Origin: a virus
Reading direction: 5' to 3' (one strand)
IMG/VR virus record: IMGVR_UViG_3300025769_000507
Span: 1 to 31,318 of that record
Length of the DNA: 31,318 nt
The first letter of the stretch is position 1. Every line of letters begins with the position of its first letter. The position numbers were made by a program, and so were the translations under genes. The notes beneath the pieces were generated by a model. It searched no databases, was not told where the DNA came from, and saw only the letters and a program-made list of their open reading frames with translations. Below are positions 4,568-31,318 of the stretch, one piece after another.

Positions 4568-4794
4568 TACAGATCCACTTCCTTTAGATCTACAAACTTA
4601 CCTTCTTTTATCGCTAGCTTTCCTTTATAAACACGATCAAGATTATTTCTAAACTTGATCCAAGATCTTTGATCTATCTTGTATTGTTTTCTTTCTTCAT
4701 AGCGATCTATTTTCTTTTCAATCCAAAGACCAAAGTCCCAAAAGAACTTAACAGCCATGATCGATATAAATAAAGATCCGATTATTTCTTCCAT
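4567..4794 (-). CDS. 75-aa membrane-anchored hypothetical protein
   Basis: The N-terminal part (IIGSLFISIMAVKFFWDFGLW, residues 4-24) is a likely membrane segment, followed by a strongly basic cytoplasmic helix with KKIDRYEERKQYKIDQRSW. This layout, one membrane anchor and a charged tail, is common in small early phage proteins that act at the host membrane. TAATG overlaps with both neighbours. Function unknown. Confidence 0.65.
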   Translation of the reverse strand: MEEIIGSLFISIMAVKFFWDFGLWIEKKIDRYEERKQYKIDQRSWIKFRNNLDRVYKGKLAIKEGKFVDLKEVDL

Positions 4795-5003
4795 TATTCC
4801 CCCTTATTGTAATTAGTATGACTATCAACGATCGTTAATATTGTGTCATACAGTTTGTTTACTGTGTCTTCATGTGTATCAGGAAGGAACTCTTCTAAAG
4901 TATTTTTAATGTCGTGTTCTATTCCTAATTCATTTTCTTCAAAGTTATCAAAAAAGTTTTTAGCTCTTTGTAACATCAATTCTTCTTTTTGTTCTTGATC
5001 CAT
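4794..5003 (-). CDS. 69-aa acidic hypothetical protein
   Basis: Acidic helical protein (MDQEQKEELMLQRAKNFFDN at the start, then DTVNKLYDTILTIVDSH). The start carries the leader GGGGAATATAAAATG that is repeated before the next two upstream genes. Ends in NKGE, encoded by the following ribosome binding site, with a TAATG overlap. No recognised family; an anti-host or DNA-mimic role would be speculation. Confidence 0.7.
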   Translation of the reverse strand: MDQEQKEELMLQRAKNFFDNFEENELGIEHDIKNTLEEFLPDTHEDTVNKLYDTILTIVDSHTNYNKGE

Positions 5004-5004
5004 T

Positions 5005-5187
5005 TTATATTCCCCTTATTCCGTTTTCTCTAAGATGTTTTTTACAACCTTCTAAATCAGATATAACTCTGATTGGGTTATCATCTTGATCTACTTCTAC
5101 TTTCCAATAAACTAGATTATCTTTAGTACAAGTTTCATCTTTATCAACGCAACTTAGACCGTTATTAACTATCCACATTGTTTTCAT
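5005..5187 (-). CDS. 60-aa hypothetical protein
   Basis: Small beta-rich protein with WIVNNGLSCVDKDETCTKDN, then YWKVEVDQDDNPIRVISDLE, then a helix to GIRGI. Three cysteines (13, 20 and 48) are present but not in a zinc pattern. It uses the repeated GGGGAATATAAAATG start leader, and its own RGI terminus is encoded by the same leader of the next gene. Function unknown. Confidence 0.65.
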   Translation of the reverse strand: MKTMWIVNNGLSCVDKDETCTKDNLVYWKVEVDQDDNPIRVISDLEGCKKHLRENGIRGI

Positions 5188-5188
5188 T

Positions 5189-5374
5189 TTATATTCCCCC
5201 TTTTATTTTCTTAATTTCTTTTTTTAATTGTATTTTTTTAATGTATATTTCATCTAGTTTGTTAAATTGATTTTCAGATAATTTATGTCCTTTATCTTCA
5301 TTAAAGCAACCTAGAACATCAAGTCTTTTAGTTTCTAGATCAGCTAATTCGTTTTCTAATTTATATAAATCCAT
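5189..5374 (-). CDS. 61-aa coiled-coil hypothetical protein
   Basis: Almost entirely charged helix: LYKLENELADLETKRLDVLG, a short turn with DKGHKLSENQ, then KLDEIYIKKIQLKKEIKKIK, consistent with an antiparallel helical hairpin. First of three genes in a row that share the GGGGAATATAAAATG start leader; its terminal GGI is encoded by that leader. Function unknown. Confidence 0.65.
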   Translation of the reverse strand: MDLYKLENELADLETKRLDVLGCFNEDKGHKLSENQFNKLDEIYIKKIQLKKEIKKIKGGI

Positions 5375-6876: not shown

Positions 6877-7482
6877 CTACTTGTTAGAACTTACGCCGTC
6901 TTCTAAAATCTTGACAGCTTTATCCATATCCTTTTGATCAATAATTTTTTCTAGATCTACTTTTACTTTTTCGACAACAGGATCTTTTGGCTTAGGTTTT
7001 GGCTTTGGTTTAGTTTTATTGGCGATCAGTTTATCGTCTTCTAAATAACTAGATAGCCAAGCAGAACTGTCATAAAGCTCTATTCCTATCCCTAAGCGCA
7101 TACCACAGCGCTTTACAGCGTCCGAGATACACTCTTTGGCTCTTTCCCCATTGTTAGCAGGTTTACGCCCTTCTACTTCAAAAGGCTTATCGCACATACC
7201 TACTTCAGTTACAGATCTGAAATGACCGTCAATAGTTCCTTCTACTGTGTATTCAACACCTGTAAGGATCTTGCGTCTTCTTCCTTCTAGATCTTCGTAA
7301 TCATCATAAATAAATGATCCTGCTTTTAACTGAACATCAGGGATCAGCGCGATTAGTCGTTGAGTAACTTGCGTGTGATCAACATAATCGATCCCGTCTT
7401 TCTTATAAGATACAGGCAGTTTCTTTACAACTGCTTTATTCCAAGCCTTACTTAGCTTTATTTGATCTGATCTTTTTCCCAT
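6877..7482 (-). CDS. Rad52/Sak-like single-strand annealing protein
   Basis: Probable recombinase that anneals complementary single strands during phage replication. The 201 residues contain the family-like signature VDHTQVTQRLIALIP (about 34-48), strands GVEYTVEGTIDG, and the helix CISDAVKRCGMRLGIGIELY (118-137), which matches the SDAxKR...GIG pattern of Rad52-type phage annealing proteins. A KPKPKPKPK linker at about 158-166 leads to a C-terminal helical tail, as in proteins that bind host SSB or partners. Good ribosome binding site AGAAAGGAAA. No partner exonuclease is seen nearby, though the metallophosphoesterase at 9511 could serve. Confidence 0.72.
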   Translation of the reverse strand: MGKRSDQIKLSKAWNKAVVKKLPVSYKKDGIDYVDHTQVTQRLIALIPDVQLKAGSFIYDDYEDLEGRRRKILTGVEYTVEGTIDGHFRSVTEVGMCDKPFEVEGRKPANNGERAKECISDAVKRCGMRLGIGIELYDSSAWLSSYLEDDKLIANKTKPKPKPKPKDPVVEKVKVDLEKIIDQKDMDKAVKILEDGVSSNK

Positions 7483-11299: not shown

Positions 11300-11557
11300 T
11301 CACTTTCTAAAATTTATTGTTAGCAACCATACGACTAATGATCCTAGTATGGCTAGTCCAATTATTGATCTAGAACTTCCTGTCATGCTAAACCAAGCAA
11401 TAAAAAATCCTAAGATCGTAAATGTTTGGATCACAAGTTCCCTAGTTATTTTTTTCAACCAAGATCCAAGCCATTTAAAAACTTTTATTATATTTATTTT
11501 AGGTACCTTTATCTTAGGTAACTTAGGTGCGTTTAATTTAGGTAAATTAAACTTCAT
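11300..11557 (-). CDS. 85-aa two-span membrane protein, holin candidate
   Basis: Basic N-terminus with a KLxAPKLPKIKVPKI repeat-like stretch, an amphipathic helix KVFKWLGSWLKKI, then two membrane segments (about 44-58 and 64-80) and a basic end NFRK. The size, charge and two spans fit a class II-like holin. Its ATG overlaps the stop of the 751-aa surface protein (TAATG). No named family recognised. Confidence 0.62.
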   Translation of the reverse strand: MKFNLPKLNAPKLPKIKVPKINIIKVFKWLGSWLKKITRELVIQTFTILGFFIAWFSMTGSSRSIIGLAILGSLVVWLLTINFRK

Positions 11558-13812
11558 TAAAAATTCCTTCTAAAAGGGATCGCACTTGCACTAATGATCT
11601 GACTAGCAATAATAACAGGGATCGTAGTTTCCCTAGCTTTAGCCTTCTGATCTTCCGTCATGTCCGATCCGATTTCTCTAATGTTTATTTCAGATAAATC
11701 TACATCAATAATAGCACCGATCGGATCTGCTATAAACTCTTCTACTTGAATTTCTACGACAACATCAGCAACGGTAAAATTCTCTACATCTTTATTATCT
11801 TCTGAAGTTGCTCTCTCTACATATTCTTCAACAGCTTTACTTATATTCTCGTCTTTTTCGGCGCTCTCTGCTAGGATCTCTAGATCTTCTGCACCCTGTA
11901 CGCCTAATACTTCAGCTACAACTTCTTTTTCTTCTGTAGATAATGTTTCAACAGTTTTAACTTCGGTAACTTTATTTACTACAGCTTGGACTACTTTCTG
12001 TGTTTGTTTATCTGCAACTGCTAAAGATTGTACTTCTACAGTTGAAACCTGTTCTAAGACTTCGATCTGCTCTTCTTGATCAAGAGTTTCTACAAATTCT
12101 TCGATCTGTTCTTCTAATTCTTCTTCATATTCTTCTAATTCTTCTTCTGATAGATCTTCTAATTGTTCTTGATCAAGTACTTCTACTACTTCTTCTAGAT
12201 CAATAATCTCTTGAATTACTTCTTCAACTACAGCTACTACAAGTTCTACTTCTTCTTCTGTTAAATCTTCTATTTCTTTTTCTTTTATTTCTTCAAATTC
12301 TTCTTTTGTGATTTCTTCAGGAAGGATCTCTTGTAATATTTCTTCTTCTATCTCTTCTATTTCTTCTTCTAATTCAATAATTTTTTCTTCGATCTCTTCT
12401 TCGATTTCTATAATTTCTTCTTCTATTTCTATGATCTCTTCTTCTTCAGGCTCAATTATGATCACAATTTCATTAAATTCGTCTTCTTCTATTACAAATT
12501 CTTCTAAATCTAATTCATTTAACTCTTCAATTACTTTAATAATCTCTTCTTTTTCTTCATCAGATAGATCTAATTCAGGATCAAACTCAACTTCTATGAT
12601 CTCTTCTTCTATTATTTCTAGATCTTTTAGATCTTCTTCAGCTTTAAGATCTATTTCTTCGATCTCTTCATCAGTAAGATCTTCAATTATTATGATCTCT
12701 TCTTCTATAATTTCTTCTTCTATGATCTCTTCTTCTATGATCTCAATGTCTTCTAATTCTTCTTCTATGATCTCAAAACAATCGCCCCTTTCTATTTGTG
12801 CGTCTGTCATATAACAGCCGTACTCTTCTTCGTTTTTCTTTCTTTCTTGATCTCTTTGCGCGTCGCCCTGCTCTATTTGTTCTTCAGTATATTCAACTTC
12901 TTCATCGCCGATCATAACAGTAACTTTTTCAGGCTCGGGCGGTGGTGGTGGTGGTGGGGGTGGCGGGGCTATCGTAGTCGTCGTAGTTGTCGGCGGAATA
13001 GTAGTAGTAGTCGTCGATGTAGTCGTAGTTGGCGGGATCGTCGTAGTAGTCGTAGATGTAGTAGTTGTACTCGTAGTCGTCGTCGTAGATGTAGTAGTCG
13101 TAGTTTCAGGCGGTAAAGTAGTCGTTGTCGTGGTGCTAGTTGTTGTTGTCGTACTAGATGTACTTGTAGTACTGCTAGTAGTACTACTTGTAGTCGATGA
13201 AGTAGTTGTTGAAGTAGTTGTAGTAGTCGTTCCATTATCATAAGTATAATAAATATTATCTATTAAGTACCAATCCCCGTTAGTATCACTTGCACCGTCT
13301 ATAACAATTTCTGTTATATAAGTATCTTGAACAGTTAGAGTTAATGTGTTTTGTACATAGTTACTATCTACGACATTAGTAGTCATAGTAAAAGTAGCTG
13401 AAGATCCATTATCATAATAGACCGTGCCTGATCCTGAAGTTTCCCTAGCACCATAAACAAAGCCTACTTCTGTTATTTGTTTCTGATCAGAACTAGGAAA
13501 AGCGATCGTAAGATCGTCTGTACTTGATCTAATTCCTAGCTGATAACGATCAGATCCAAAGTAATTAGATCCAAAACAATCAAGATCTTCTATATAGATC
13601 CCCCCTGTATTCTGTGTATCTGCACAAGATCCACTATTGATCGCAGTTACAGCAGTATCAGAAGATCCATAAAGGACATCTATATCCTGATTTATTTGAT
13701 GATTATTAAAATTTTCTGTTGTTGTTACTTCTTCAGCAAGTAAAACGGGTACAGGAATTACTAAAAATACGACAAGAAGTAATCTAACAAGTGTATTAAA
13801 CCGATAGATCAC
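11557..13812 (-). CDS. 751-aa secreted surface protein with Thr-rich stalk and Glu/Ile-rich region
   Basis: Signal peptide at 1-26 (LLLVVFLVIPVPVLLAEE), then a beta-rich domain at about 27-192 with two Cys (63, 79) and an ending WYLIDNIYY reminiscent of carbohydrate-binding jelly rolls. Residues 194-281 are nearly all Thr/Ser with LPP and IPP breaks, 283-292 are Pro. After a short DxQxxxGD-containing part with Cys333 and Cys345 comes a very acidic Glu/Ile/Leu-rich region to about 610, then a mixed C-terminal domain ending in a hydrophobic TTIPVIIASQIISASAIP and RRNF. It looks exported to the host surface or placed on the virion. It sits among holin genes, not with tail genes. No family recognised; Thr/Pro stalks are typical of actinobacterial secreted proteins. 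Confidence 0.8.
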   Translation of the reverse strand: MIYRFNTLVRLLLVVFLVIPVPVLLAEEVTTTENFNNHQINQDIDVLYGSSDTAVTAINSGSCADTQNTGGIYIEDLDCFGSNYFGSDRYQLGIRSSTDDLTIAFPSSDQKQITEVGFVYGARETSGSGTVYYDNGSSATFTMTTNVVDSNYVQNTLTLTVQDTYITEIVIDGASDTNGDWYLIDNIYYTYDNGTTTTTTSTTTSSTTSSTTSSTTSTSSTTTTTSTTTTTTLPPETTTTTSTTTTTSTTTTSTTTTTIPPTTTTSTTTTTIPPTTTTTTIAPPPPPPPPPPEPEKVTVMIGDEEVEYTEEQIEQGDAQRDQERKKNEEEYGCYMTDAQIERGDCFEIIEEELEDIEIIEEEIIEEEIIEEEIIIIEDLTDEEIEEIDLKAEEDLKDLEIIEEEIIEVEFDPELDLSDEEKEEIIKVIEELNELDLEEFVIEEDEFNEIVIIIEPEEEEIIEIEEEIIEIEEEIEEKIIELEEEIEEIEEEILQEILPEEITKEEFEEIKEKEIEDLTEEEVELVVAVVEEVIQEIIDLEEVVEVLDQEQLEDLSEEELEEYEEELEEQIEEFVETLDQEEQIEVLEQVSTVEVQSLAVADKQTQKVVQAVVNKVTEVKTVETLSTEEKEVVAEVLGVQGAEDLEILAESAEKDENISKAVEEYVERATSEDNKDVENFTVADVVVEIQVEEFIADPIGAIIDVDLSEINIREIGSDMTEDQKAKARETTIPVIIASQIISASAIPFRRNF

Positions 13813-14186: not shown

Positions 14187-14777
14187 CTAGGTTATGTTCT
14201 TTCCTTCTAGTTTAGCATTAAGGATCCTGATCAATCCTTTAATCTCTGATAAATCGTCTTTTATATTGTTTGGGTGGATCATATCAGGTGGACTAGCGTT
14301 AGTTACTTCTGATCCTAAGTTTATTTTAGTGATCTCTAATGTAACTTTTTCGCCACGATCTAAAGCGTCTGCGACTTTTGGATAAAAGTTTGTATATGCT
14401 AGCTTACTATTTCCTATAAATCCGTCTTTAGAAACATCTAGATCCTGTTGAGTAGATCCCACTAGAACGCAACCTGCCGTATTTTCGTCAGTATTCCCTA
14501 AGTGAAAAAGCACCCATTTAAAGTTCGGGATCTGTTTTATTTCGAGCATACCGCGTCCCTTATGGATCGTAGGATATTTCTTTGTATAACGATTGAAAAA
14601 GCCACCTTCATTACGATATTCAATAGGATAAGTACCTTCAGGAATACATGTTTCGCCTGCTATTTTAATATCTCTATATTCGTCTTCTAATACATAGCAC
14701 TCGAATACACCGTCCACAAATAACATACCATTGACAGCGTCTTTTCCAAATTGAGTTCTAATTAGTTGTAGTTTCAC
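14187..14777 (-). CDS. DUF5675 family protein
   Basis: Residues 1-135 follow the DUF5675 pattern: MKLQLIRTQFGKDAVNGMLF, VLEDEYRDIKIAGETCIPEG, then FKWVLFHLGNTDENTAGCVLVG. The HxGN...GC arrangement resembles the His/Cys site of L,D-transpeptidase-like folds, so action on peptidoglycan is possible but unproven. A helical C-terminal tail of about 50 residues (KDDLSEIKGLIRILNAKLEG) is added. It overlaps the previous gene's stop by one base and opens the host-exit block. Confidence 0.78.
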   Translation of the reverse strand: MKLQLIRTQFGKDAVNGMLFVDGVFECYVLEDEYRDIKIAGETCIPEGTYPIEYRNEGGFFNRYTKKYPTIHKGRGMLEIKQIPNFKWVLFHLGNTDENTAGCVLVGSTQQDLDVSKDGFIGNSKLAYTNFYPKVADALDRGEKVTLEITKINLGSEVTNASPPDMIHPNNIKDDLSEIKGLIRILNAKLEGKNIT

Positions 14778-15097
14778 TATTCAGGTTTTGGATTATCTGC
14801 TTTGACTTGATCTATATGATCTTTAAAAGTAGTAGTATCGTTCTTCTGATCCCAATAGATCATGTCTAATTGATCGCCGATTGATCCGTACTCTGCTTGT
14901 CTAGCTATTTTATAGCCATTTTCTTGCTGATCATAATCACTATTAGCCTTATCTATAACAGCCTGATCGTATTCACTTTCAGTGAACTCTCTTCGCTCGT
15001 TATTAACTTGCGCCCACATACCGTCGCCACCGTTAGCGGTTTTCATAGCGTCGATCTCTGTCTGCGCTTGTGCTGTTAGTTCTTCTAATGTAGCCAT
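14777..15097 (-). CDS. Tail fibre-associated protein, chaperone-like
   Basis: A 106-residue helical protein whose C-terminal RQAEYGSIGDQLDMIYWDQK...DHIDQVKADNPKPE is the hallmark of a small protein family found next to tail fibre genes in many marine phages. The N-terminus is helical and acidic (MATLEELTAQAQTEIDAMKT). Likely a virion component or fibre assembly factor. It follows the six-gene array and returns to high GATC content, unlike the array. Confidence 0.7.
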   Translation of the reverse strand: MATLEELTAQAQTEIDAMKTANGGDGMWAQVNNERREFTESEYDQAVIDKANSDYDQQENGYKIARQAEYGSIGDQLDMIYWDQKNDTTTFKDHIDQVKADNPKPE

Positions 15098-15134: not shown

Positions 15135-15662
15135 TTACTTCTTTAAACCATATAATGTAAATGTTCCACTAGCTATGTTTCCACTAGACATAAAATAATT
15201 TACTCCATTATGAGTTTCTGCTACTGTATAAACCCAACCACCCTGTCCACCTAGTAAGACACCACCAAAATAACTACTAAAAACAATTTCATCAGTAGCG
15301 AAACTATATTCACTTGAATTATTGAAGTTAAACAAATATTGAACACCCTGTAATGTTTCCTCTGTATCTGTTCCCATAGCTAATTGTGTATTTACAAAAA
15401 CTTCAGTTTGATTAGTAGCACTATTATCATTAAAAGGATTATTAGACCTTAATGTTTTTTTAGCATAATCGTAATTAGAAGTTGATTGTGCAGTTCCACT
15501 AGCAGTTACTCTAACCTTTAAACTTTGTGTATCTGTATCGCCCTGCACATCACTTAACCTAACCATATACACATCATAAGTGCTATCAATACCTGTTAAA
15601 GTTACACTTGCTACTGCTGATGTAACTATTTCTTCTTGTATTTTTATTAAGCTACCACTCAT
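15135..15662 (-). CDS. Distal tail paralog B2
   Basis: Beta-rich 175-residue protein, last of six tandem paralogs. It matches B1 (16819) in ASVTLTGIxxxxDVYM, the NFNNSSEYSF segment, GGQGGWVYTVAE and the final SGTFTLYGLKK. Glycine, serine and asparagine content and beta pattern suggest a receptor-binding or fibre subunit on the tail tip. Preceded by a 3-base gap after C2. No GATC in the gene. Catalytic residues not apparent. Confidence 0.75.
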   Translation of the reverse strand: MSGSLIKIQEEIVTSAVASVTLTGIDSTYDVYMVRLSDVQGDTDTQSLKVRVTASGTAQSTSNYDYAKKTLRSNNPFNDNSATNQTEVFVNTQLAMGTDTEETLQGVQYLFNFNNSSEYSFATDEIVFSSYFGGVLLGGQGGWVYTVAETHNGVNYFMSSGNIASGTFTLYGLKK

Positions 15663-15665
15663 AAT

Positions 15666-16184
15666 TCATTTAACTCCATATACTGTTAGTTTTCCGTCAA
15701 AAAGTTGAATATTTCCATTATCAAAAATATTTAAACCTGTTATTTGTTCAGCAACTTTATAAACACCACAATATTTTAAACTTCTTAGTGGTCCTGTTAT
15801 GTCATAGTAAGTTGCATATTGATTGAGCATAAAAGTGTACTTTGAACTGTCATAAGGATTTATAACATACATAACACTTCCACTACCACCATTACCAATA
15901 CCCTCTCCTAATGTTTCTACCCAAGATGTATCACTAGTATTTTTCTTTTCTTGAAATGTAGTATCTGACCTCATTATTACACCTGCATATTCATAATTAG
16001 ATGTTGAAACTACACCACCTGAATTAATAACTCTTGTGTTTATAACTTGTCTGTTGCTACTGTGTTGTAAACCTGTGATTGTTATTTTATAAACATCATA
16101 TTTATCGCTAAATATATCAGTAATATTAAATGAGTTTGCACTATCTAAAGTTTGAGATTTTATAAATTCTAAATTAGTAGCCAT
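15666..16184 (-). CDS. Distal tail paralog C2
   Basis: A 172-residue beta-rich protein, counterpart of C1 (17325): both share NxxNITDxFxDxxDxY near the N-terminus, RVINSxG, TSNYxYA, MYxxNPxxSSxYTF and the terminal YGxxV/K. Coupled by TAATG to A2. Likely a tail-tip or fibre subunit; no GATC present in its 519 bases. Confidence 0.75.
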   Translation of the reverse strand: MATNLEFIKSQTLDSANSFNITDIFSDKYDVYKITITGLQHSSNRQVINTRVINSGGVVSTSNYEYAGVIMRSDTTFQEKKNTSDTSWVETLGEGIGNGGSGSVMYVINPYDSSKYTFMLNQYATYYDITGPLRSLKYCGVYKVAEQITGLNIFDNGNIQLFDGKLTVYGVK

Positions 16185-16816
16185 TATGAATATTCCTTTA
16201 TGCCGTATAGAGATATAGAGCCACTTGTAATATTCCCACTTTGCATTAAAATTTTAATTCCTGTAACTTGACTTTTTTGTGGTAACATACCTGCTCCAAA
16301 ATTCATATTTCCATTAGGTGTAGCATTCATTGTCATTGAGTGAAAAGTTAAAAAACTGTATTTTGTACTGTCTGTTAAATTATAAAAATATGTATAACCA
16401 TTTGCAGTTTCATTAGTAGCATTACCTAAATTCATTAAAGTATAAATTCTAGTGTTACTTGTACTTCTACTTTCCCCAAAACTTCCTGCAACATTTCCAT
16501 ATTGATAAGCATATTGATAAACACTTGCAGTTTCTTCTACACCACTTTCAAAAAATCTAACATTTGTTAAAACATTATTATTTGCAGAGTGGATATCATT
16601 AAAAGTCATAAAATGAACATTGTAAGTTCCTAAGTTTGTAAAATCAACACTTGCAACATTACTAACAATTTGAGTTTCAATTAATTCTAATTGTCCATAG
16701 TTAGTATATTTATCTGCTCTTGTTAGATCATAAATATCAGTAGGTGTAAAGATACCTTTATTATTTCCAAAACTTTGTTCTGGGCTTTCTGGTATATATC
16801 CAAATTCATTACTCAT
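16184..16816 (-). CDS. Distal tail paralog A2
   Basis: A 210-residue protein. It pairs with A1 (17852) by an added N-terminal segment, NKGIFTPTDIYDLTRADKY, and by FFESGVEETASVYQYAY, GSFG and GAGMLPQKSQVTGI. The extra N-terminus, absent in B and C types, may attach the trio to the tail. One GATC only. Gap of 2 bases after B1, which is the junction between the two trios. Confidence 0.75.
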   Translation of the reverse strand: MSNEFGYIPESPEQSFGNNKGIFTPTDIYDLTRADKYTNYGQLELIETQIVSNVASVDFTNLGTYNVHFMTFNDIHSANNNVLTNVRFFESGVEETASVYQYAYQYGNVAGSFGESRSTSNTRIYTLMNLGNATNETANGYTYFYNLTDSTKYSFLTFHSMTMNATPNGNMNFGAGMLPQKSQVTGIKILMQSGNITSGSISLYGIKEYS

Positions 16817-16818
16817 AA

Positions 16819-17325
16819 TTACACCACCTTATACAATGTAAATGTACCACTAAGCAGATTTGTACCTGTACCCTCAAAAAAATGTAATCCGTCACTTGCA
16901 CTTGCAACTGTATGAACTATACCACCTTGACTTCCTATATTGTTAGTAGCATAATCCACAACAACTTCCTCTAATGTCATAAAACTATATTCTGAACTTG
17001 AATTAAAGTTATAACAATAAAGTATAAAATTTGCACCTTCACCTGTTCCTGTACCTAAAAATTGTGAACTATAAAAAGTAAGATTTACCTGTGCATTATT
17101 TGCGAAAGAAGTGTTTGCTTTTAAATTTTTAGTACCAAAATCATAGTTAGCAGTTACATCAGCACTACCACTTTTTGTAATTCTTAATCCCCATTGTTTT
17201 ATATCTGTTTCAACTCTTAAATTATTTACTGCACACATATAAACATCATCAGTATTTATGCCTGTCAAAGTAACACTTGCAGTTGCACTAGATATTGTTT
17301 CTGTTGCTACTTGTACTAAACTCAT
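16819..17325 (-). CDS. Distal tail paralog B1
   Basis: A 168-residue beta-rich protein: SSATASVTLTGINTDDVYMC, ANYDFGTKNLKANTSF, YNFNSSSEYSFMTLEEVV, GSQGGIVHTVA and LSGTFTLYKVV. Counterpart of B2 (15135). TAATG overlap with C1. No GATC in the gene. Function as receptor-binding or fibre subunit is inferred from position and repeat nature. Confidence 0.75.
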   Translation of the reverse strand: MSLVQVATETISSATASVTLTGINTDDVYMCAVNNLRVETDIKQWGLRITKSGSADVTANYDFGTKNLKANTSFANNAQVNLTFYSSQFLGTGTGEGANFILYCYNFNSSSEYSFMTLEEVVVDYATNNIGSQGGIVHTVASASDGLHFFEGTGTNLLSGTFTLYKVV

Positions 17326-17855
17326 TAGCTATCAACTCTCAATCCGTAAGTTCTAAATTTTCCACTATCCATATTTCCTGTTTTTGCAGAAAATTGAATA
17401 CCTGTAATACTTGTAGTACTTTTTTGCACACCAATACTTTTCCAAGTATATGATTGAGGTGTTGATGTTCTGTAAGACATAGTCTGTGAAATATAAAAAG
17501 TATAAGATGATGAATTTGTTGGATTGAATATATACATAGTCATTTCCCCTGTATCATTTGTACCTGTACCAATAAAACTAATACTTTCCCACTCTGTCCT
17601 GCTTGTTAATCTTTCCTCTGCAACACTAGAACTACTTGGAATATATAAACTTGCATAATCATAGTTAGAAGTTATTTCACTACCACTACTGTTAATTACT
17701 CTACCAAATAAATAATCCCCACTACTAGAAGTCATAGCTATGTCTGTTGCCTCTATAACATATATATCAAAATCATCTGTAAATACATCTGTTATATTTA
17801 AAGTATTTATTGTTGAAGTAACTTCAGTTTCATTTACTAATCTCAAAACACTCAT
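17325..17855 (-). CDS. Distal tail paralog C1
   Basis: A 176-residue Ser/Thr-rich beta protein. NTLNITDVFTDDFDIYVIEA, GRVINSSGSEITSNYDYA and MYIFNPTNSSSYTFYISQ match C2 (15666). Starts in an ATGA overlap with A1. No GATC. Likely tail-tip component. Confidence 0.75.
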   Translation of the reverse strand: MSVLRLVNETEVTSTINTLNITDVFTDDFDIYVIEATDIAMTSSSGDYLFGRVINSSGSEITSNYDYASLYIPSSSSVAEERLTSRTEWESISFIGTGTNDTGEMTMYIFNPTNSSSYTFYISQTMSYRTSTPQSYTWKSIGVQKSTTSITGIQFSAKTGNMDSGKFRTYGLRVDS

Positions 17856-18469
17856 TTTTGATTAACCCCAAATAATTTAAATTCCCCTAATATTTGACCT
17901 GTTGAAAAAGTACTTCTTAACCTAAAGCCGTCAACTGCGCTAGCTTGTGGTAAAACCCCACCGCCAAATCTCATAGCATAAGTAGTTCCAAATTGTCCTG
18001 TTCCTATAAATGTAACATAAGTATATTTTGATGAATTTGTTGGGCAATAAATGTAACAGTATGAATTGCTTGAATTAGCAGTTGTGCTGTCTGTATCTGC
18101 GCCAACATGTATCCAAGCAGAAGTAGTAGTCTGACCATTACCAAAACTACCACTTGCCCTTCCACTTTGTAGCCCATAATTATACACCCCTGAACTTTCC
18201 AAAACCCCACTTTCGTAAAACTGAATACCTGTTGTGTATCCTACTTGATCTGATTGTACATTTTTTGTTTCTAAATAATAAACATCATATCTATCAGTAA
18301 AAACTTCAGTAAAATCTATTGCACTTGTCATAGATGAAACTGTTGTAGATGTTATAAATTCTAAGCTACCACCCCAACTACCGTCTTTAGTTAGTTGTAA
18401 TATTTCGCTAGGTGTATATAAACCTGTATTCTTTTTTACATCATTTGGTTGCGTACCTATATAGGACAT
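17852..18469 (-). CDS. Distal tail paralog A1
   Basis: First of six tandem paralogs, 205 residues. N-terminal NTGLYTPSEILQLTKDG matches A2; the shared core continues with FYESGVLESSGVYNYG, SGSFG, NSSKYTYVTF and GGGVLPQASAVDGF. It ends in FKLFGVN, the family's closing strand. One GATC. Likely fibre or receptor-binding subunit; it follows two more general tail structural proteins. Confidence 0.75.
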   Translation of the reverse strand: MSYIGTQPNDVKKNTGLYTPSEILQLTKDGSWGGSLEFITSTTVSSMTSAIDFTEVFTDRYDVYYLETKNVQSDQVGYTTGIQFYESGVLESSGVYNYGLQSGRASGSFGNGQTTTSAWIHVGADTDSTTANSSNSYCYIYCPTNSSKYTYVTFIGTGQFGTTYAMRFGGGVLPQASAVDGFRLRSTFSTGQILGEFKLFGVNQK

Positions 18470-18481
18470 AAGTTGATCCTA

Positions 18482-18808
18482 TTAAGTTTGTCTTAGAAAT
18501 GATACATTGTATTCGGCGCTAGACGCTGAAGAGCATAAACCCTGCAACTTATCGCCTGTTTCTAATGTGATCTTGGTTGGTATTTCTATGGTTGTGCCGA
18601 ACGGAAGTGATACATTATTTAAAATGTGTCTTAGTGTTCCGCCTGATTTAGTTACTGATAGATCAATAGTTACATCTGCACTACTTGAATTAACATTAGA
18701 AACTAAAATACCAATTACTGTTTCAGTTGTAGAGCTAGGAACTGCGTCAACAATATCGCCTGCTGAAGTTCCTAATACGCCCTGTACGCTGTGTAAAGTG
18801 TCCGCCAT
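18482..18808 (-). CDS. Virion structural beta-sandwich protein
   Basis: A 108-residue protein with ETVIGILVSNVNSSSADVTI, SVTKSGGTLRHILNNVSLPF, then a GTTIEIPTKITLETGDKLQG strand pair. This pattern (LVSN...DV...P...I...L..GD.L) recurs in small phage virion proteins near neck or tail-fibre genes. It lies between the fibre N-terminal-like protein and the paralog array. Normal GATC content returns here. Confidence 0.65.
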   Translation of the reverse strand: MADTLHSVQGVLGTSAGDIVDAVPSSTTETVIGILVSNVNSSSADVTIDLSVTKSGGTLRHILNNVSLPFGTTIEIPTKITLETGDKLQGLCSSASSAEYNVSFLRQT

Positions 18809-18822
18809 ATTCTATTCCTTTC

Positions 18823-19299
18823 CTAGCTTAAAGCTAATACTAATCCTAAACTTACGCCACCTGCTAGGTTAGCTATATCCCCCGCAGTTGTTTTCTTTAA
18901 ACTATTACTATCATCAGCGTCGCCGATCAGAACAATATCTGCGCTAGCTACTGTAGCTGAAGTCGCTGAATTAGGGGCAATAGCTAAAGTTGAACTGAAA
19001 GCGCCACTTGTAGCACTAGTTCCGCCCGAAAGTCCTGAAGTGCCTGCTGTTGTAATAGTTACACCTGTAATATCGCCTTCGCCTATAAAACTAGCCCAAG
19101 CAGATCCATTGTAAAATTGAAGTGTGTTACTGTCTTTTAGAAAACAAAACATACCTTCTGCGTCATTAGTTCCTAATGCACTATCTCTAGCTGTTGCGTC
19201 TGCGTAAACCTGAATAACTTGATCTTGTATAAATGTTTGAAACTCTGTAGCACTAATTAAATCGCCTGTGCTATAACTTTTCCAACCTGCACCCGCCAT
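18823..19299 (-). CDS. Minor tail / fibre attachment-like protein
   Basis: A 158-residue protein. The N-terminal GWKSYSTGDLISATEFQTFI then QDQVIQVYADATARDSALG...EGMFCFLKDSNTLQFYNGSAW is common in phage tail fibres and minor tail proteins, where it binds the baseplate. The rest is Ser/Thr/Gly/Ala-rich, like a fibre shaft. Short for a full fibre, so it may be an adaptor for the paralog array downstream. Confidence 0.65.
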   Translation of the reverse strand: MAGAGWKSYSTGDLISATEFQTFIQDQVIQVYADATARDSALGTNDAEGMFCFLKDSNTLQFYNGSAWASFIGEGDITGVTITTAGTSGLSGGTSATSGAFSSTLAIAPNSATSATVASADIVLIGDADDSNSLKKTTAGDIANLAGGVSLGLVLALS

Positions 19300-19322: not shown

Positions 19323-20585
19323 CTAACTATAAGCGAAACGAGTACCTTCGCCAAGTTTAGCTGTTCCTAATATCCAAGCCGAAGATCCCGCAGGACTAAG
19401 AGTAGCAGACCAAGACCAAGATTGCGACGATCCATTTACGGTATGCTGTATGCTTTCGATCAATAATTCGTCTTCTATTGTTGTACCGCTAGGATCTTGG
19501 ATCTTAACTTTTATACGATCCCCGAACTCACGATCTAAAACCTGTGTCCATAAACCCGTGTTATCTCTAGGATTTACTGTTAATTTATCAACTCTAACTA
19601 TTGGAAGTGAAGTTTCTGCTATTTTCTGTTCTATGATCGATAAAACATCACTATCAGAAACATTGATCGTACTTTTTGTAGATCCTTTAGCTGTAAATCT
19701 AAGAACGCTATCAGCGTCTGAAATATATTGCGTTGATCCGTTTTCTCTTGTCCACTCATAAACATTGATTATCTCATTATCATCAAGAGATAAACTGACA
19801 TCAGTATAGGGAAGATCAGTACCCGTATTACTAAAAGTACCCTGAACATTTACAGCTTTAGTATTAGATAACCTATAATCACGATTTCTAAAAGTAGCTT
19901 TTCCGTCTGCACTAATAAAGAATTGTGCGTTTTCTGCTACTTCTACTTCTCGTAAAGCTGAAAGAATATTATCTGATAACTGTTGTGATTGAACATTGAC
20001 CGTACCTGTTAAAACATCTCTTCTATTACTAGGAAAACCTACTGCATTTAGGATCCTAGTAACACGATCAGAAGATAATTCTGTAAGATCTTCATAACCT
20101 AATCTAGTTGATTGTCCTAATTCACTAAATCCACCACGACCGATACGCCAAGATCTACTGTCTAAAACACCTGATTGAAAGATTTTAAATGCGTCAGTTG
20201 CTCTAAAAGTTACGACGCTATCCTGTCCCTGTGCAGTAAAAACTACAGGAATTGTATCTAAAAATCCTTCAAATAAAACATAAGTACTTGAACTATAAGT
20301 AGCGCTGATCCTAACTCTTTTAAGTGGCTGTATTTTAGATCTAGAATTAGCGCTGTCATAATAATAAGTAGTCTGACTAGGATTAAACCTATTATCTGTA
20401 TTTGAAAGCAATATTTGTGCTGATCCTGCACCAAACTGACCTAGTTCATTTACTCTTCCCCTGTTAGTTGTAAACTGTCTTACATATTGACTTACATCTG
20501 TAAAGGATTGACTTTCATCAAAAGGATCACTATCAAATCCGATTTCTACGGTTATATCGACATTACTATCAAAAGCTACTGACAT
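19323..20585 (-). CDS. Hub-like minor tail protein
   Basis: A 420-residue tail protein immediately after the tape measure, where siphophages encode distal tail and hub proteins. The N-terminal part has a VSQYVRQFTTNRGRVNELGQ segment and ILLSNTDNRFNPSQ, seen in actinophage and marine phage minor tail proteins. It continues with beta-rich domains and ends in a SxSWSATLSPAG strand. It overlaps the tape measure stop by one base. Exact homology (Dit versus Tal) cannot be told. Confidence 0.72.
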   Translation of the reverse strand: MSVAFDSNVDITVEIGFDSDPFDESQSFTDVSQYVRQFTTNRGRVNELGQFGAGSAQILLSNTDNRFNPSQTTYYYDSANSRSKIQPLKRVRISATYSSSTYVLFEGFLDTIPVVFTAQGQDSVVTFRATDAFKIFQSGVLDSRSWRIGRGGFSELGQSTRLGYEDLTELSSDRVTRILNAVGFPSNRRDVLTGTVNVQSQQLSDNILSALREVEVAENAQFFISADGKATFRNRDYRLSNTKAVNVQGTFSNTGTDLPYTDVSLSLDDNEIINVYEWTRENGSTQYISDADSVLRFTAKGSTKSTINVSDSDVLSIIEQKIAETSLPIVRVDKLTVNPRDNTGLWTQVLDREFGDRIKVKIQDPSGTTIEDELLIESIQHTVNGSSQSWSWSATLSPAGSSAWILGTAKLGEGTRFAYS

Positions 20586-23017
20586 TAGACAATCGAAAGT
20601 CCGCGCTGTTGTGCTTTTGTTATTGCAGTAGCAACAGCATTTTCTACATCTTGTTCAGTTCCAAGTACTGCACCTGTTGTAACATTAATACTTACTGATC
20701 CGCTAGTTGCTAACATAGATCCTGCAAAACCACCTACACCGCCACTACTTACAAAAGGTGTTTCGTCTTTTAATGCACCTGTAGGATCGAAGGCTTTTTG
20801 AGCGGGAACAGTACCACCTGTAGTTCCAAGATCTACGGGTTTTCCTGATAAAGCAAATATTTCGCCAAATTTATTCATAACACGATCTAGATCGCCTGTA
20901 ACTTTGTCAGCCATAAGTCCTACTAATTGTTCAAAAGTTCCTAAAGCGCTTGCGTCTGCTAATGCTTTATCTAGTTCAGCTTTAGCAATCGCCATTTCTA
21001 ATAAGTTTTCTGTACTGTCGTCAGTTGCTTTAGCTAATTCTTCTTTAGCAGTTCTATAATCATCAGTAGCTTTTTCAACTGCTTTTGTAGCTCTTTCGAC
21101 ATCTTCCTGCGCTCTGATCAGATCTTGTTCTGCTTGCTCTTCTTCTCTAGTAGCTGAAGTGCTAGCTAATGTTATTTCTTCTAGTCTTCTTTTAGCTAGT
21201 TCTAGTTCTTTATTCTGTAGCGTAGATCTTTCTTCTATATCTGATAATCTTTGTACCGCGTCAGCTTGTCTTAGGATCGCGATTTCTTCTTCTAATGTAA
21301 CTTGTTTACTTAGTTCTTTTTGTCTATTTAATTCCTGTTCAGCTAACTCAACTGCTTTAATTGCTTTTTCTTGATCAGTTTGGGCGTCTTCTAAACTATC
21401 TAATCTATCTTGTTCTTCTGTTTCTAGATCTATGATGTTTTGTTTTATATCTTCGATCTTTTGATATGCTTTAAGCACTTTGTTTAATGCGCTTAAACCT
21501 TTTTCGTTTCTTAATGCAACTAATTCTTCTTCTGCGTCGTTTAGATCTTCTGTAACTTCTGTAGCTGTTTCTATTGTGTGATTTAATCTATCTTGTTCTA
21601 TTTCGTATCTATGAGCATTGTTGATCTGATCTCTTTGGATCGCGTTAGCTCTTTCTATTTCAGAAGAAAGATAAGAAGTATTACTTGCGTAATTTTCTAA
21701 AAGATTGGCGTTTTGTTGTGATCTTAGGATCTCTTCTAATCTTTCTTGTTGCTCTACAAAGTTAACTACAGGGGATCCACCACCCATAGCACCTGCGAAA
21801 GCACCACTTAACATCGCTATTGCTTGTGCTTGTTCTTCAATACTCTTTACAGGTGCGTCGCCTTTAAGTCTTAAAATTACTTCATCTAGAAATCTATTAC
21901 CTAATCCGATTGCGTCTTCTAATGCAGGTGCAAACTTATCAGCTAGTATTAATCCTATTTCTGCAAACTTGTCGCCTGCTAGTCCAACTTGTTGTGATAA
22001 AGATGTGATCTGTTTATCTGCAACTTCTTGAGTTGTTCCCCCGCTATCTCTAAGAGCGCTTTCATATTCTCTGATCTTATCTGTTGATCCTGATAAGATC
22101 TTAACCGCGTCAGCCACACCACGATTAAGACCTAACTGATCTAATGTACTTGCTTTAAGTTCATCGGACATAGGTTTAAGTACACGATCAAGCTCTTCAA
22201 CTATGTCAGCAACATTTCTCATATTGCCTTCAGCGTCAAACATTTCTAGTCCAAGTTTCCTAAACTCTTCCCCGTTCTTCGCTGTAGCTCTTGGGATATC
22301 TCTTAAAACCTGATTTAACTTTTCGCCACCTTCGGCACCCTTAACGCCTGCGTCTGCAAAAACAGCAAGAACAGCGACGCCTTCTTCAATATCTTTATTA
22401 ACAACTTTTAACGCGGATCCTGCTTTAGATGTAAGAGCCTCAGAAAATTGCTGAACACTTGCGTTAGCTAAGGTGTTAGCTTTGACTAATACATCAGTTA
22501 CCCTAGTTAAGTTCTCTAAGTTTTGTTGTGCGTCATTAACAGTAAGACCTAATGCGGATTGTGCGTCAGTAGCCAAGTCAGTAGCAGTAGCCATATCGAA
22601 CATACCTGCTTGGGCAAACTTAGCAACTTGGGGAAGTGCTTGGATCTGTTGTTCTGCGTCTAAACCTGCGGACGCTAAGAAGAAAAAGCTCTCTGCTGAT
22701 TGTTCTGCTGAAAAGGAAGTACTGATCGCAACTTCTCTCGCAGTTTGTTCCATACGGCGTTGCTGATCTTCAGTAGCACTCATGATCGCTAATGATTGTG
22801 TCATAGCGTCGTCGAACGCCATAAATTGTCTAGTTGCGCTCGATAGAGCTTTCGCCATAGCTACTGCGCCTGCAACAGCAGTAACGCCCATAGCTTTTCC
22901 GAATTTACCTAACCCCTTAGAAGATTTATCGCCCGACTTACCGATCCCGTCTAATTGTCTTTTAGCTAGATCAGCACCCTTAGTTATTATGTTTAAAACT
23001 ATATTTGATACAGCCAT
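20585..23017 (-). CDS. Tail tape measure protein
   Basis: Sets tail length and passes through the tail tube. The 810 residues include the PhageMin_Tail core: FMAFDDAMTQSLAIMSATED (residues 66-85), AREVAISTSFSAEQSAESFF, LASAGLDAEQQIQALPQVAK, then LNQVLRDIPRATAKNGEEF. About 490-690 is long coiled coil. The C-terminus has GGVGGFAGSML and ends in IVVxxA-like polar sequence. Length suggests a tail of roughly 100-130 nm by the usual 0.15 nm per residue. Follows the frameshift chaperone with TAA directly before ATG. Confidence 0.93.
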   Translation of the reverse strand: MAVSNIVLNIITKGADLAKRQLDGIGKSGDKSSKGLGKFGKAMGVTAVAGAVAMAKALSSATRQFMAFDDAMTQSLAIMSATEDQQRRMEQTAREVAISTSFSAEQSAESFFFLASAGLDAEQQIQALPQVAKFAQAGMFDMATATDLATDAQSALGLTVNDAQQNLENLTRVTDVLVKANTLANASVQQFSEALTSKAGSALKVVNKDIEEGVAVLAVFADAGVKGAEGGEKLNQVLRDIPRATAKNGEEFRKLGLEMFDAEGNMRNVADIVEELDRVLKPMSDELKASTLDQLGLNRGVADAVKILSGSTDKIREYESALRDSGGTTQEVADKQITSLSQQVGLAGDKFAEIGLILADKFAPALEDAIGLGNRFLDEVILRLKGDAPVKSIEEQAQAIAMLSGAFAGAMGGGSPVVNFVEQQERLEEILRSQQNANLLENYASNTSYLSSEIERANAIQRDQINNAHRYEIEQDRLNHTIETATEVTEDLNDAEEELVALRNEKGLSALNKVLKAYQKIEDIKQNIIDLETEEQDRLDSLEDAQTDQEKAIKAVELAEQELNRQKELSKQVTLEEEIAILRQADAVQRLSDIEERSTLQNKELELAKRRLEEITLASTSATREEEQAEQDLIRAQEDVERATKAVEKATDDYRTAKEELAKATDDSTENLLEMAIAKAELDKALADASALGTFEQLVGLMADKVTGDLDRVMNKFGEIFALSGKPVDLGTTGGTVPAQKAFDPTGALKDETPFVSSGGVGGFAGSMLATSGSVSINVTTGAVLGTEQDVENAVATAITKAQQRGLSIV

Positions 23018-23572: not shown

Positions 23573-23983
23573 TTAGTGTGTACCTCTAGTAACCGCGTCA
23601 GAAACTTGTAGATCTGCTGAATAAGCAACCACATCGCCGACAGGGCTAGAAATAGCATAGTTTGTTAATATTGTTTCGCCTGTGTATTTAACTTTTCCTG
23701 ATCCTGTTCCTTCAGGGGAATATTCAAAACTTAATGTAGCAGATTGTCCTAATACAGCGCCGAATATTGCGTCTGCTGTACTATCCCAAAGACCGCCTAA
23801 TGAAATAGTCGCGTCTTTCAATCCAACAATATAAGTTTTATTGTCCTTCCCAAGTACTGTTGTTTCTGCAACATCAGCAGTTTCAGGAAAGTCCACATTA
23901 TTTACATAAGCCGATATATCTGTAAGTGATCCACCTGAGTTATCAAGTTTAAATACACTATCTTTTCCATGAACAAAAGCCAT
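23573..23983 (-). CDS. Tail tube protein 2 (short paralog)
   Basis: A 136-residue protein paralogous to the gene upstream: MAFVHGKDSVFKLDNSGGSL, AYVNNVDFPETADVAETTVL, GKDNKTYIVGLKDATISLGG, and NYAISSPVGDVVAYSADLQV. It lacks the C-terminal domain of its partner, so it is a minimal tube domain. Either both build the tube or one is a specialised end or decoration form. AAGAAAGGA precedes the start by about 12 bases. Confidence 0.8.
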   Translation of the reverse strand: MAFVHGKDSVFKLDNSGGSLTDISAYVNNVDFPETADVAETTVLGKDNKTYIVGLKDATISLGGLWDSTADAIFGAVLGQSATLSFEYSPEGTGSGKVKYTGETILTNYAISSPVGDVVAYSADLQVSDAVTRGTH

Positions 23984-24002: not shown

Positions 24003-24713
24003 TTAATTGTTTCTTCCAAAGCCAATTATAACAGCGAAACTTGGTGTAGATCCGCCTACTGTATATTCGACTTTTAGATATCTATTTACTGTAGTACCTT
24101 TCGCAACCGCTTTAACTTCGCTAGTTGCTGAAGTTGCTTGGGTAAATGTTACTAGATCAGCGTAAGTACTGTTATCAGCACTATGAGTGATCTTAGCGTC
24201 TAAAGTTGGGCTAGTTCCACTAGCAGAAGTAACGATAATAAAAGCGCCACCCCCGTTAGCTGTACTTGCTGAATTATCTCTAGCTGTTCCTGATCCTGTA
24301 GCTGTAACAGTTGCATTTTCAAGAACAGTACCATTAAAGATACCTTCATCAGATTGAAAGTCAGCACTAAAAGCAACGATATCGCCTACAGGACTTGAAA
24401 TCCCATAATTAGTAAAGTTACCTTTTCCAAAACTTACACTATCAGTAGCGTCAACACCGTCAATCCCCATGACTAATTCTTGACCACCTGTGCCGAGATT
24501 AGTTGCAATAGGACTATCTGCTGTAGCGTCGAAAAATCCTGCAACTGTTATAGTGCCGTCTTTTCCGCCTGCTATGTATGTTTTAGCTGATTTTCCAAAA
24601 GTTGTACTTTCTGCGATGTCTGCTGATCTTGTAGCGTCAGCATTGTTTAAATAGCTAGAAAGATCGGTGCTGTTCAAAAATACTTTAGTGTCCTTACCGT
24701 GTTTAAACGCCAT
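24003..24713 (-). CDS. Tail tube protein 1 (long paralog with C-terminal domain)
   Basis: Residues 1-128 form the tube domain (MAFKHGKDTKVFLNSTDLSS, SADIAESTTFGKSAKTYIAG, NYGISSPVGDIVAFSADFQS). Residues about 130-236 are an added Ser/Thr/Ala-rich beta domain (LDAKITHSADNSTYADLVTF ... YLKVEYTVGGSTPSFAVIIG), as in Ig-like decorations on tail tubes. It starts in a TAATG overlap with a 15-residue Cys-rich microgene. Confidence 0.8.
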   Translation of the reverse strand: MAFKHGKDTKVFLNSTDLSSYLNNADATRSADIAESTTFGKSAKTYIAGGKDGTITVAGFFDATADSPIATNLGTGGQELVMGIDGVDATDSVSFGKGNFTNYGISSPVGDIVAFSADFQSDEGIFNGTVLENATVTATGSGTARDNSASTANGGGAFIIVTSASGTSPTLDAKITHSADNSTYADLVTFTQATSATSEVKAVAKGTTVNRYLKVEYTVGGSTPSFAVIIGFGRNN

Positions 24714-29670: not shown

Positions 29671-30441
29671 TTATATATCGGCTGTTTCAGTTAAAACAGC
29701 CATTGTTCTTAGAAATAAGTCTTGATCTTCTTCAGTATTCTTGATCATGTTTTCATCTTTCACGCCTGCGTCTAATAGATCATTAAGATCTACATAAGCG
29801 TCGTGTAAGTCTTCTACAAGATCCTGAATAGCTGTAGATGATTTCTCGCTTAGTTTCTTTCCTTTTTCTAGGCGTAAAGAAGTAAGTTCTTGCGCCCTGT
29901 TGATTACTGATTTCAAAGTGTTACGCACCTCTTCAATTTCTTCAGTAAATCTTTTACCTTCTGTCTTTTGTTCTTTGACAGCTAGGGTATGGGTATTCTG
30001 ATTAGCACCAACTAGGACAGGGCTAACTTCCCATACTTTTAAACTTTTTAGATAACGGACTTCTACTTCTTCTGATCCGTCTTTGGTAAACATACCATTT
30101 TCACTATCTAACACTTCATATCCGAACGACCATTGTTGTAAATCGCCCATAGCTTTGACAGTTTCATAAGCGTCTTTTCCGCGTTGGGTGTCCATAATAA
30201 ATTGACCTTTGAAAACTGCTTGTCCTTCTTCTTCTACGATTTCGCCACGACCAATGACATCTTTCCAATCATGTCCCCAAACCATAGCCACGCCTTTTTC
30301 GCCGTAACCTGATTTAATAGAGTTTGGAAGAACGACATCGCCGTCGCTGTCCACTTCGTTAAATACTGAAAATACTGCTTTAACAGATCCTTTCTCGCCT
30401 TCGTCTGTTAGAAGAGATATATTTTTAAATTGTCTTTCCAT
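29671..30441 (-). CDS. Prohead protease with C-terminal coiled coil
   Basis: Caudovirales HK97-type protease that trims capsid delta domains. Residues 18-150 hold the domain: GSVKAVFSVFNEVDSDGDVV, MVWGHDWKDVIGRGE with catalytic His57, LQQWSFGYEV with nucleophile Ser105, and LKVWEVSPVLVGAN. A further 100 residues of charged helix (EEIEEVRNTLKSVINRAQEL onward) form a scaffold-like tail. Located directly before the capsid gene. Confidence 0.9.
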   Translation of the reverse strand: MERQFKNISLLTDEGEKGSVKAVFSVFNEVDSDGDVVLPNSIKSGYGEKGVAMVWGHDWKDVIGRGEIVEEEGQAVFKGQFIMDTQRGKDAYETVKAMGDLQQWSFGYEVLDSENGMFTKDGSEEVEVRYLKSLKVWEVSPVLVGANQNTHTLAVKEQKTEGKRFTEEIEEVRNTLKSVINRAQELTSLRLEKGKKLSEKSSTAIQDLVEDLHDAYVDLNDLLDAGVKDENMIKNTEEDQDLFLRTMAVLTETADI

Positions 30442-30442
30442 T

Positions 30443-31318
30443 TCAAGCCTTCCTAGTAATTCGCTTATTATGATAAATAGTAGTACACCTACAATTCACA
30501 ATCAATTCAATGGGTGCGCCGAATTTACTATCTGCGGGATAGTCCATTTTATAGCCTAGCACATTAAATTGTTTTGACATAGGAACTCTCTGATTATCAA
30601 CAACTCTATGGCTGTCCCTGACTTTCCCGTCCCTTCTTGTTAGCCAAGATTTTTCTAATGCTAGTCCTGTTTTCTTTGCGCCTTCTTCTTGTCCCCATTG
30701 TGATAAAGCTAGTCCTTCTGTTCTAGCGATCCTAGTTGCGTCGCCTAACATACGCTTAGTTAAACTTTCTGATAGTTCGTTAGCTATGTAATCATCTAGA
30801 TCAGTTCCCCTAAGTCCAAGCGCTCTACCTGCGTCCATACCTTTTCTAAGTGATCTGTTTACAATAGCTTTTCTAGATTTAGACATTTCAGGAAACAAAG
30901 TATCTAAGCGATCATTTACAAAAGCAATAGCGTCTGAATTTCTTGTAAGGTTTTCTATAGGGATCTGAACGCCCCTAGCTGATCTAAGCGGATAAAATCC
31001 TTCTGTGATCACTTCTCTAGTTGGCTTTCTTCTTCTTTGTCTTGCGATCGCCTGTTCCTGATCTGCTGTAAATTGTGTCTTTACATTTTCAGGAAGTAGA
31101 GTTACAAACTGATAGAAGTAATAATCTGTCATCATAGAAAGATATAGATCATAAATATCAGCTTTCCAATTCTTAGTATTCTGATCTATTAAGAAATCAA
31201 TGACACCGATCATACCTGCTTGACGAGCTGTATTGTCTTTAATGTAATTTAAAATATCTTTTCTTTGGCGATCTAGTAACTTGTAATACTCTACAGCTAA
31301 CGCATAATCCCAATTCTT
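30443..31318 (-). CDS. MuF-like head morphogenesis protein, N-terminus cut by window edge
   Basis: Minor head protein bound near the portal. The C-terminal half carries the MuF pattern: ARTEGLALSQWGQ, SWLTRRDGKVRDSHRVVDNQ, YPADSKFGAPIELIVNCRCT. The frame is open past ATG at 31213 up to the window edge and adds coding-like sequence (NWDYALAVEYYKLLDRQR), so the true start lies outside and ATG 31213 is internal. No ATG, GTG or TTG occurs in those 35 codons. Confidence 0.85.
   Translation of the reverse strand, partial: KNWDYALAVEYYKLLDRQRKDILNYIKDNTARQAGMIGVIDFLIDQNTKNWKADIYDLYLSMMTDYYFYQFVTLLPENVKTQFTADQEQAIARQRRRKPTREVITEGFYPLRSARGVQIPIENLTRNSDAIAFVNDRLDTLFPEMSKSRKAIVNRSLRKGMDAGRALGLRGTDLDDYIANELSESLTKRMLGDATRIARTEGLALSQWGQEEGAKKTGLALEKSWLTRRDGKVRDSHRVVDNQRVPMSKQFNVLGYKMDYPADSKFGAPIELIVNCRCTTIYHNKRITRKA

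Follow-up and report, generated by a model that had tools for sequence, protein, structure and literature searches.

The receptor-binding tips of phages are usually homotrimers of a single gene product, and the genes for receptor-binding proteins are usually located in the tail-tip region. In phages with two such proteins, such as those of the Klebsiella KP32 type or those with the branched tailspikes of CBA120, the adhesins are docked by distinct conserved N-terminal segments and have exchangeable distal parts, each adhesin being a homotrimer encoded by one gene. In the mycobacteriophage Mysterious, three consecutive beta-sandwich proteins (gp35, gp36 and gp37) make up a 1:1:1 baseplate complex at the tail tip, a heterotrimer that has an N-terminal arm, and these heterotrimers assemble with six-fold symmetry (PMC13252515). 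In the virophage DSLV2, three consecutive related tail proteins, which fall into position-specific clades, were reported to form a 1:1:1 heterotrimer that binds cell-surface LPS (PMC12724248). Here we describe an array of six related genes in a marine phage, and compare it with these systems.

Genome context

The window analysed here is the entire record of a marine bacterial virus (31,318 bases), and its gene order is that of a tailed phage, including terminase, capsid, prohead protease, tail tube proteins and tape measure. The array is found in the order tape measure, a 420-aa protein, u158, u108, the six genes, d106, a DUF5675 protein and a holin-like protein. The tail length tape measure protein (20585-23017, minus strand) matches Pfam PhageMin_Tail (6.5e-31) and PHROG 1533, and because of this protein we place the array in the tail region; judging by the gene order it is situated at the tail-tip genes. 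The adjoining 420-aa protein (19323-20585, minus strand) belongs to PHROG 5313, of unknown function, and is called a hub by position only. Between this tail protein and the array there is the ORF u158 (18823-19299, minus strand), and directly upstream of slot 1 the small protein u108 (18482-18808, minus strand), a marker of the two-slot architecture, which is possibly an adaptor. The gene after the last B, d106 (14777-15097, minus strand), matches PHROGs 9114 and 1787 (function unknown) and is a putative assembly helper.

Elsewhere in the window, the adjacent tail tube proteins at 24003-24713 and 23573-23983 are also paralogous, with 43% identity over 135 aa, the second being about 100 aa shorter than the first. 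Two adjacent 256-aa genes at 29671-31213 were likewise compared, and are not paralogs. A 751-aa protein (11557-13812), which has a weak DUF2252 match only, has relatives near such arrays. The product of 6877-7482 gives a weak Rad52-like match (17.2 bits, under the Pfam cut-off), and if it is a real annealing recombinase it could favour gene exchange in the array.

The six genes and their classes

Six minus-strand ORFs, separated by overlaps or gaps of 1-4 nt, occupy positions 15135-18469. Slot 1 comprises A1 (205 aa, 17852-18469), with a putative docking tag and a beta-sandwich head, and its tagless partners C1 (176 aa, 17325-17855), which overlaps A1 by 4 nt, and B1 (168 aa, 16819-17325), which overlaps C1 by 1 nt. 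Slot 2 comprises A2 (210 aa, 16184-16816), with a tag and head of its own, and the tagless partners C2 (172 aa, 15666-16184), assigned from its ORF, pairing and tree class, and B2 (175 aa, 15135-15662), with an all-beta head.

All 15 pairs among the six proteins are significantly similar in phmmer comparisons, in agreement with the first-pass annotation of this DNA, which had described the genes as paralogs. The best partners are reciprocal and lie three places apart (A1-A2 ~5e-31, C1-C2 ~2e-27, B1-B2 ~1e-36), the remaining pairs giving ~1e-9 to 1e-19. In a tree of 81 relatives from IMG/VR, classes A, C and B have 27 rows each, with bootstrap/SH-aLRT values of 100/99, 100/99 and 100/95, respectively, and in a 165-row tree all proteins (165/165) fall in the correct class, the class-specific sequences of B and C never crossing. 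Best partners and tree classes thus agree with the proposed pairing of positions 1-4, 2-5 and 3-6, and the gene order and the A/B/C names given in that annotation hold. It had suggested an all-against-all comparison and a tree, naming a grouping of neighbours as the contrary outcome; in both analyses A1 joins A2, B1 joins B2 and C1 joins C2, and neighbours do not group. The listed motifs were found as well; strictly, A1 has GLYTP and A2 has GIFTP at "GxFTP". Each tree class contains members from slot 1, slot 2, lone triplets and triplets with a Gly-rich partner.

Scans of the six proteins against Pfam and PHROG gave no functional name, and the phage tail collar family PF07484 had no match in any of them at E values up to 1. 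The AlphaFold2 models are all-beta, with a mean pLDDT of 95.0 for B2 and of 91.5 for A2, the latter having a helix at residues 25-33, within the tag. Foldseek searches against BFVD returned many viral proteins whose annotations are tail fibre, Stf-repeat or collagen-repeat, and those against the PDB gave weak matches (TM 0.39 for the best hit and up to 0.42 overall), with a cyanophage tailspike first and galectins among the next; PDB sequences searched with profiles yielded no meaningful match.

Arrays in related viruses

The main set of relatives was collected in three scans of viral contigs, in which some loci are overlapping pieces of one contig. Except for the pelagiphages the relatives are metagenomic, and single loci may be chimeric assemblies, but the pattern recurs across many. 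Position-specific profiles read complete arrays as 123456 or 456. Six-gene arrays were complete in 63 cases, of which 39 are distinct. A count restricted to deduplicated loci that are flanked at either end gave 31 ACBACB arrays, 24 ACB arrays (which take in some loci with a Gly-rich adhesin in the first slot), four loci whose sole hits were of tag type, to Gly-rich proteins, three pelagiphages with a run of three genes each, and a gene present as a single copy in phage Lederberg. As around 60 arrays read ACBACB or lone ACB, and almost nothing else, the unit is three genes. In the same set, u108 lies directly upstream in 31/31 ACBACB and 0/24 ACB arrays, a position test in which three loci with a Gly-rich protein plus a triplet, and u108 further upstream, can enter the ACB count; d106 lies downstream in 31/31 ACBACB, 24/24 ACB and 0/4 Gly-rich-only loci. 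Gene junctions are also conserved among the 39 distinct arrays, with a 4-nt A1-C1 overlap in 37 and a 1-nt C1-B1 overlap in 36, the B1-A2 boundary being mostly a gap of 0-2 nt.

Three odd arrays were found once each, ACBAB (L135), ABACB (L168) and BACB (L096). The second C of L135 is present in the profile list, below the score cut-off. L168 (8001-10525) is missing C1, some of its genes are truncated, and its B2 ORF continues into other sequence, the array being either degenerate or misassembled. In L096 a distant B-like protein of 215 aa (4645-5292) lies upstream of the triplet and is separated from it. A host scan of genome contigs gave one locus only, in a Maricaulis MAG contig with two triplets (L197), too little to assign a host.

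Slot-specific tags and Gly-rich replacements

The A proteins have an N-terminal extension of ~36-41 aa that is absent from B and C. This tag is slot-specific, reading YIGTQPN... in slot 1 and SNEFGYIPESP... in slot 2; in the window these are MSYIGTQPNDVKKNTGLYTPSEILQLTKDGSWGGSL... of A1 (18362-18469, minus strand) and MSNEFGYIPESPEQSFGNNKGIFTPTDIYDL... of A2 (16694-16816, minus strand), respectively. Lone triplets have a third, shorter A tag, MPLGAARFGLLGG or similar. A scan with the tag region revealed other phages that have a Gly-rich domain (PF21722) joined to a slot-1-type tag and followed by a slot-2 triplet, or alternatively in which the slot-1-tagged Gly-rich protein is followed by a second one with a slot-2-type tag, and no triplet. 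A signature related to the tag of A2, SNEYGY[IV]..SPTQ, is present on Gly-rich adhesins of other phages. Gly-rich adhesins replace one triplet in L179, L181, L183 and L185-L189, and both triplets in L180, L182, L184, L190 and L191.

The Gly-rich adhesins are unrelated to the triplet proteins, yet carry the same kinds of slot-1 and slot-2 tags. This sharing of tags with single-gene replacements is the strongest evidence that one triplet likely corresponds to one adhesin, with A as its likely anchor, and that there are two docking slots. The behaviour of the triplet as one unit is supported by the array counts, by replacement with a single-gene adhesin, and by distance covariation (see below).

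In two loci (L090, 3510-4463, and L037, 3224-4159) a Gly-rich protein lies between two triplets, a hint of a third slot, and the Maricaulis MAG contig has a similar-sized gap between its triplets (L197, 1686-2896). A small gene encoding MAHYAF... follows the Gly-rich adhesins (L181, 2902-3279; L179, 3880-4287; L186, 979-1386; and similar), much as d106 follows the triplets, so that a separate helper may belong to each type of adhesin.

Gene exchange and covariation

Between distinct arrays, single genes can be near-identical while the remaining genes are mostly 30-60% identical. Examples are genes 2 and 5 of L129 and L138 (94% and 98% identity), gene 6 of L008 and L129 (95%), and A2 of the window and L003 (87%). 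The DNA profiles of the arrays show conserved ends and divergent middles, and the slot-specific ends of B and C are mostly kept. A first tree separated the A heads by slot, but this separation was lost once the tags were removed, the heads from either slot and from lone triplets then intermixing; A1 of L173 and the lone A of L043 have almost identical heads behind different tags. Judging from these sequences, phages exchange single genes, as well as A heads while the tags in front of them stay fixed, and exchange occurs even from one slot to the other. As single genes are swapped between phages whose remaining genes are mostly less than 60% identical, the variable cores cannot be what the subunit interfaces rely on.

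These observations bear on the earlier proposal that three already different genes were copied as one block. A, B and C did diverge before the slots existed, every class mixing slots, so that the proposal is right for the classes; as the two slots are mixed in the tree of A heads without tags, and genes have been swapped, a single block copy inherited intact, in unbroken descent, is not supported.

In distance correlations calculated from core columns only, each of the six within-triplet values (0.34-0.46) is higher than any of the nine between triplets (0.04-0.30), and among the ten possible splits 123|456 ranks first. Covariation within triplets is partly confounded by linkage, yet 3-4 (0.30), a pair of neighbours on either side of the triplet boundary, stays below the non-adjacent pairs 1-3 (0.45) and 4-6 (0.34).

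Three-gene runs in pelagiphages

In a tblastn search of a phage collection, A1 and B1 had no match and C1 matched HTVC019P only. The cultured pelagiphages HTVC010P (L194, 3318-5276; AGE60300-302), HTVC019P (L193, 5605-7440; AGE60622-624) and HTVC034P (L195, 3403-5232; QPZ53471-469) each have three family members, no more and no fewer, side by side near tail genes; the records call them "hypothetical protein", and there is one set per phage. The HTVC019P proteins match the array family with 61-68 bits in a profile search. All three proteins of the pelagiphages have N-terminal extensions of ~22 aa, so that the restriction of the tag to A is not general. In the tree the pelagiphage proteins form a separate clade, next to which the single-copy Lederberg gene is placed. 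A single triplication common to the pelagiphages and A/B/C was considered and discarded, as AU tests reject all nine groupings of a pelagiphage position with A, B or C (p at most 1.2e-4), which indicates that triplication probably happened twice. A second, independent triplication in the pelagiphages is probably the simplest reading of the sequences, though their triplets could instead have arisen through gene conversion.

Proposed model and alternatives

In our view, the best explanation, and a probable one, is that the array encodes two putative A:B:C heterotrimeric receptor-binding heads. Each A-C-B triplet would form one head, most likely a 1:1:1 heterotrimer of homologous beta-sandwich subunits, in which A would serve as the anchor, fixing the trimer to the tail tip at one of two docking places, since only A bears an N-terminal tag and this tag is slot-specific. 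C and B would attach through A, and mixing of the two trimers would be prevented by the edges of these two proteins, which are slot-specific at both the N- and the C-terminus. The variable cores would carry the receptor-binding loops, and would be exchanged between phages gene by gene, sometimes between slots, via recombination at the conserved edges. We infer the stoichiometry, the docking partner and the avoidance of cross-assembly as parts of the model, together with receptor binding, to which the tail-gene context, the variable cores and the Gly-rich replacement point. The array counts, the covariation and the apparently repeated triplication speak indirectly for the mixed trimer, and Mysterious provides a precedent. 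Counting against the model are the swaps of single genes inside a triplet, the extensions on all three pelagiphage proteins, the share of linkage in the covariation, gene conversion as another possible source of the pelagiphage triplets, and the weak PDB matches. The first-pass annotation had predicted a heterotrimer or three-part tip in two versions, which could widen host range, and the model largely follows it.

The genes could instead each encode their own homotrimer, with A3, C3 and B3 stacked or side by side and A3 at the base. Other viruses do have homologous folds in single-chain form, in some cases with annotated collagen-repeat or Stf-type stalks, which are normally homotrimeric, the Lederberg homologue is single-copy, and the genes are individually exchangeable. 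Such an arrangement does not account for array sizes of three or six, nor for two apparently independent triplications, the tagless B and C would require an attachment partner, and A, C and B are jointly replaced by one single-gene adhesin; we therefore regard it as rather unlikely. The same replacement also bears on the proposal that all six proteins build one pseudo-six-fold baseplate ring or collar rather than two adhesins, which would suit the fixed order of six similar subunits common among relatives and the six-fold assembly of the Mysterious heterotrimers (PMC13252515). A Gly-rich adhesin can replace one triplet, 24 loci have one triplet only, and the covariation splits 123|456, all of which make a ring very improbable. 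Little more probable, and still improbable, is an array that serves as a library of alternative adhesins, one used or assembled at a time and the others kept for diversification. Variable cores, conserved edges and frequent exchange would be expected of a library, but the tag is found on A only, the class-specific sequences of B and C never cross (165/165 rows), and the gene order is fixed, the genes overlapping as one operon.

Returning to the two heterotrimeric heads, we would give an even chance to the complete picture of a two-socket tip with one predicted heterotrimeric adhesin per socket, the subunits separately exchangeable and one of them plugged, so that recognition would be recombinable at up to six independent positions with the sockets unchanged. 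If this is true, a triplet of diverged paralogs would act as one exchangeable adhesin with slot-specific plugs, allowing combinatorial change of host recognition, which would be reshuffled like interchangeable parts. It would also explain the unannotated three-gene run of cultured HTVC010P, and show how a presumed homotrimer has turned into a heterotrimer in nature more than once, a prediction that is testable in cultured pelagiphages.

Comparison with known systems

Acadian, which we take to be a relative of Mysterious from the same cluster B5, has gp35-37 as three consecutive genes of ~205 aa each, with 4-nt overlaps. These proteins gave no significant match to the family or class profiles of the array, and homology of the array to Mysterious-type gp35-37, tested on these Acadian proteins, was not found. 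The array resembles Mysterious in having three consecutive genes and beta-sandwich subunits, and in the proposed model also a 1:1:1 complex, anchored by an N-terminal segment, at the tail tip. In contrast to the array, Mysterious has one set only, and a slot-specific tag or replacement by another adhesin is not described in the available part of that report (PMC13252515). With both DSLV2 and Mysterious the array shares a run of three paralogous genes whose sequences fall into classes by position, whereas DSLV2 differs in having proteins of the tail collar PF07484 family, in a virophage capsid fibre, and one set (PMC12724248). The pelagiphage HTVC runs belong to the same protein family as the array and have three adjacent copies, but differ in clade, extensions and the single set.

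The literature that we searched on heterotrimeric tail fibres, shuffled marine tail arrays and Pan3 does not describe the array. Heterotrimeric tail proteins of three paralogs are already known, and two slot-tagged copies with gene-wise exchange are, within the reach of these searches, new. With respect to the adhesins of the KP32 and CBA120 type, the difference is that each adhesin of the array is seemingly built by three genes.
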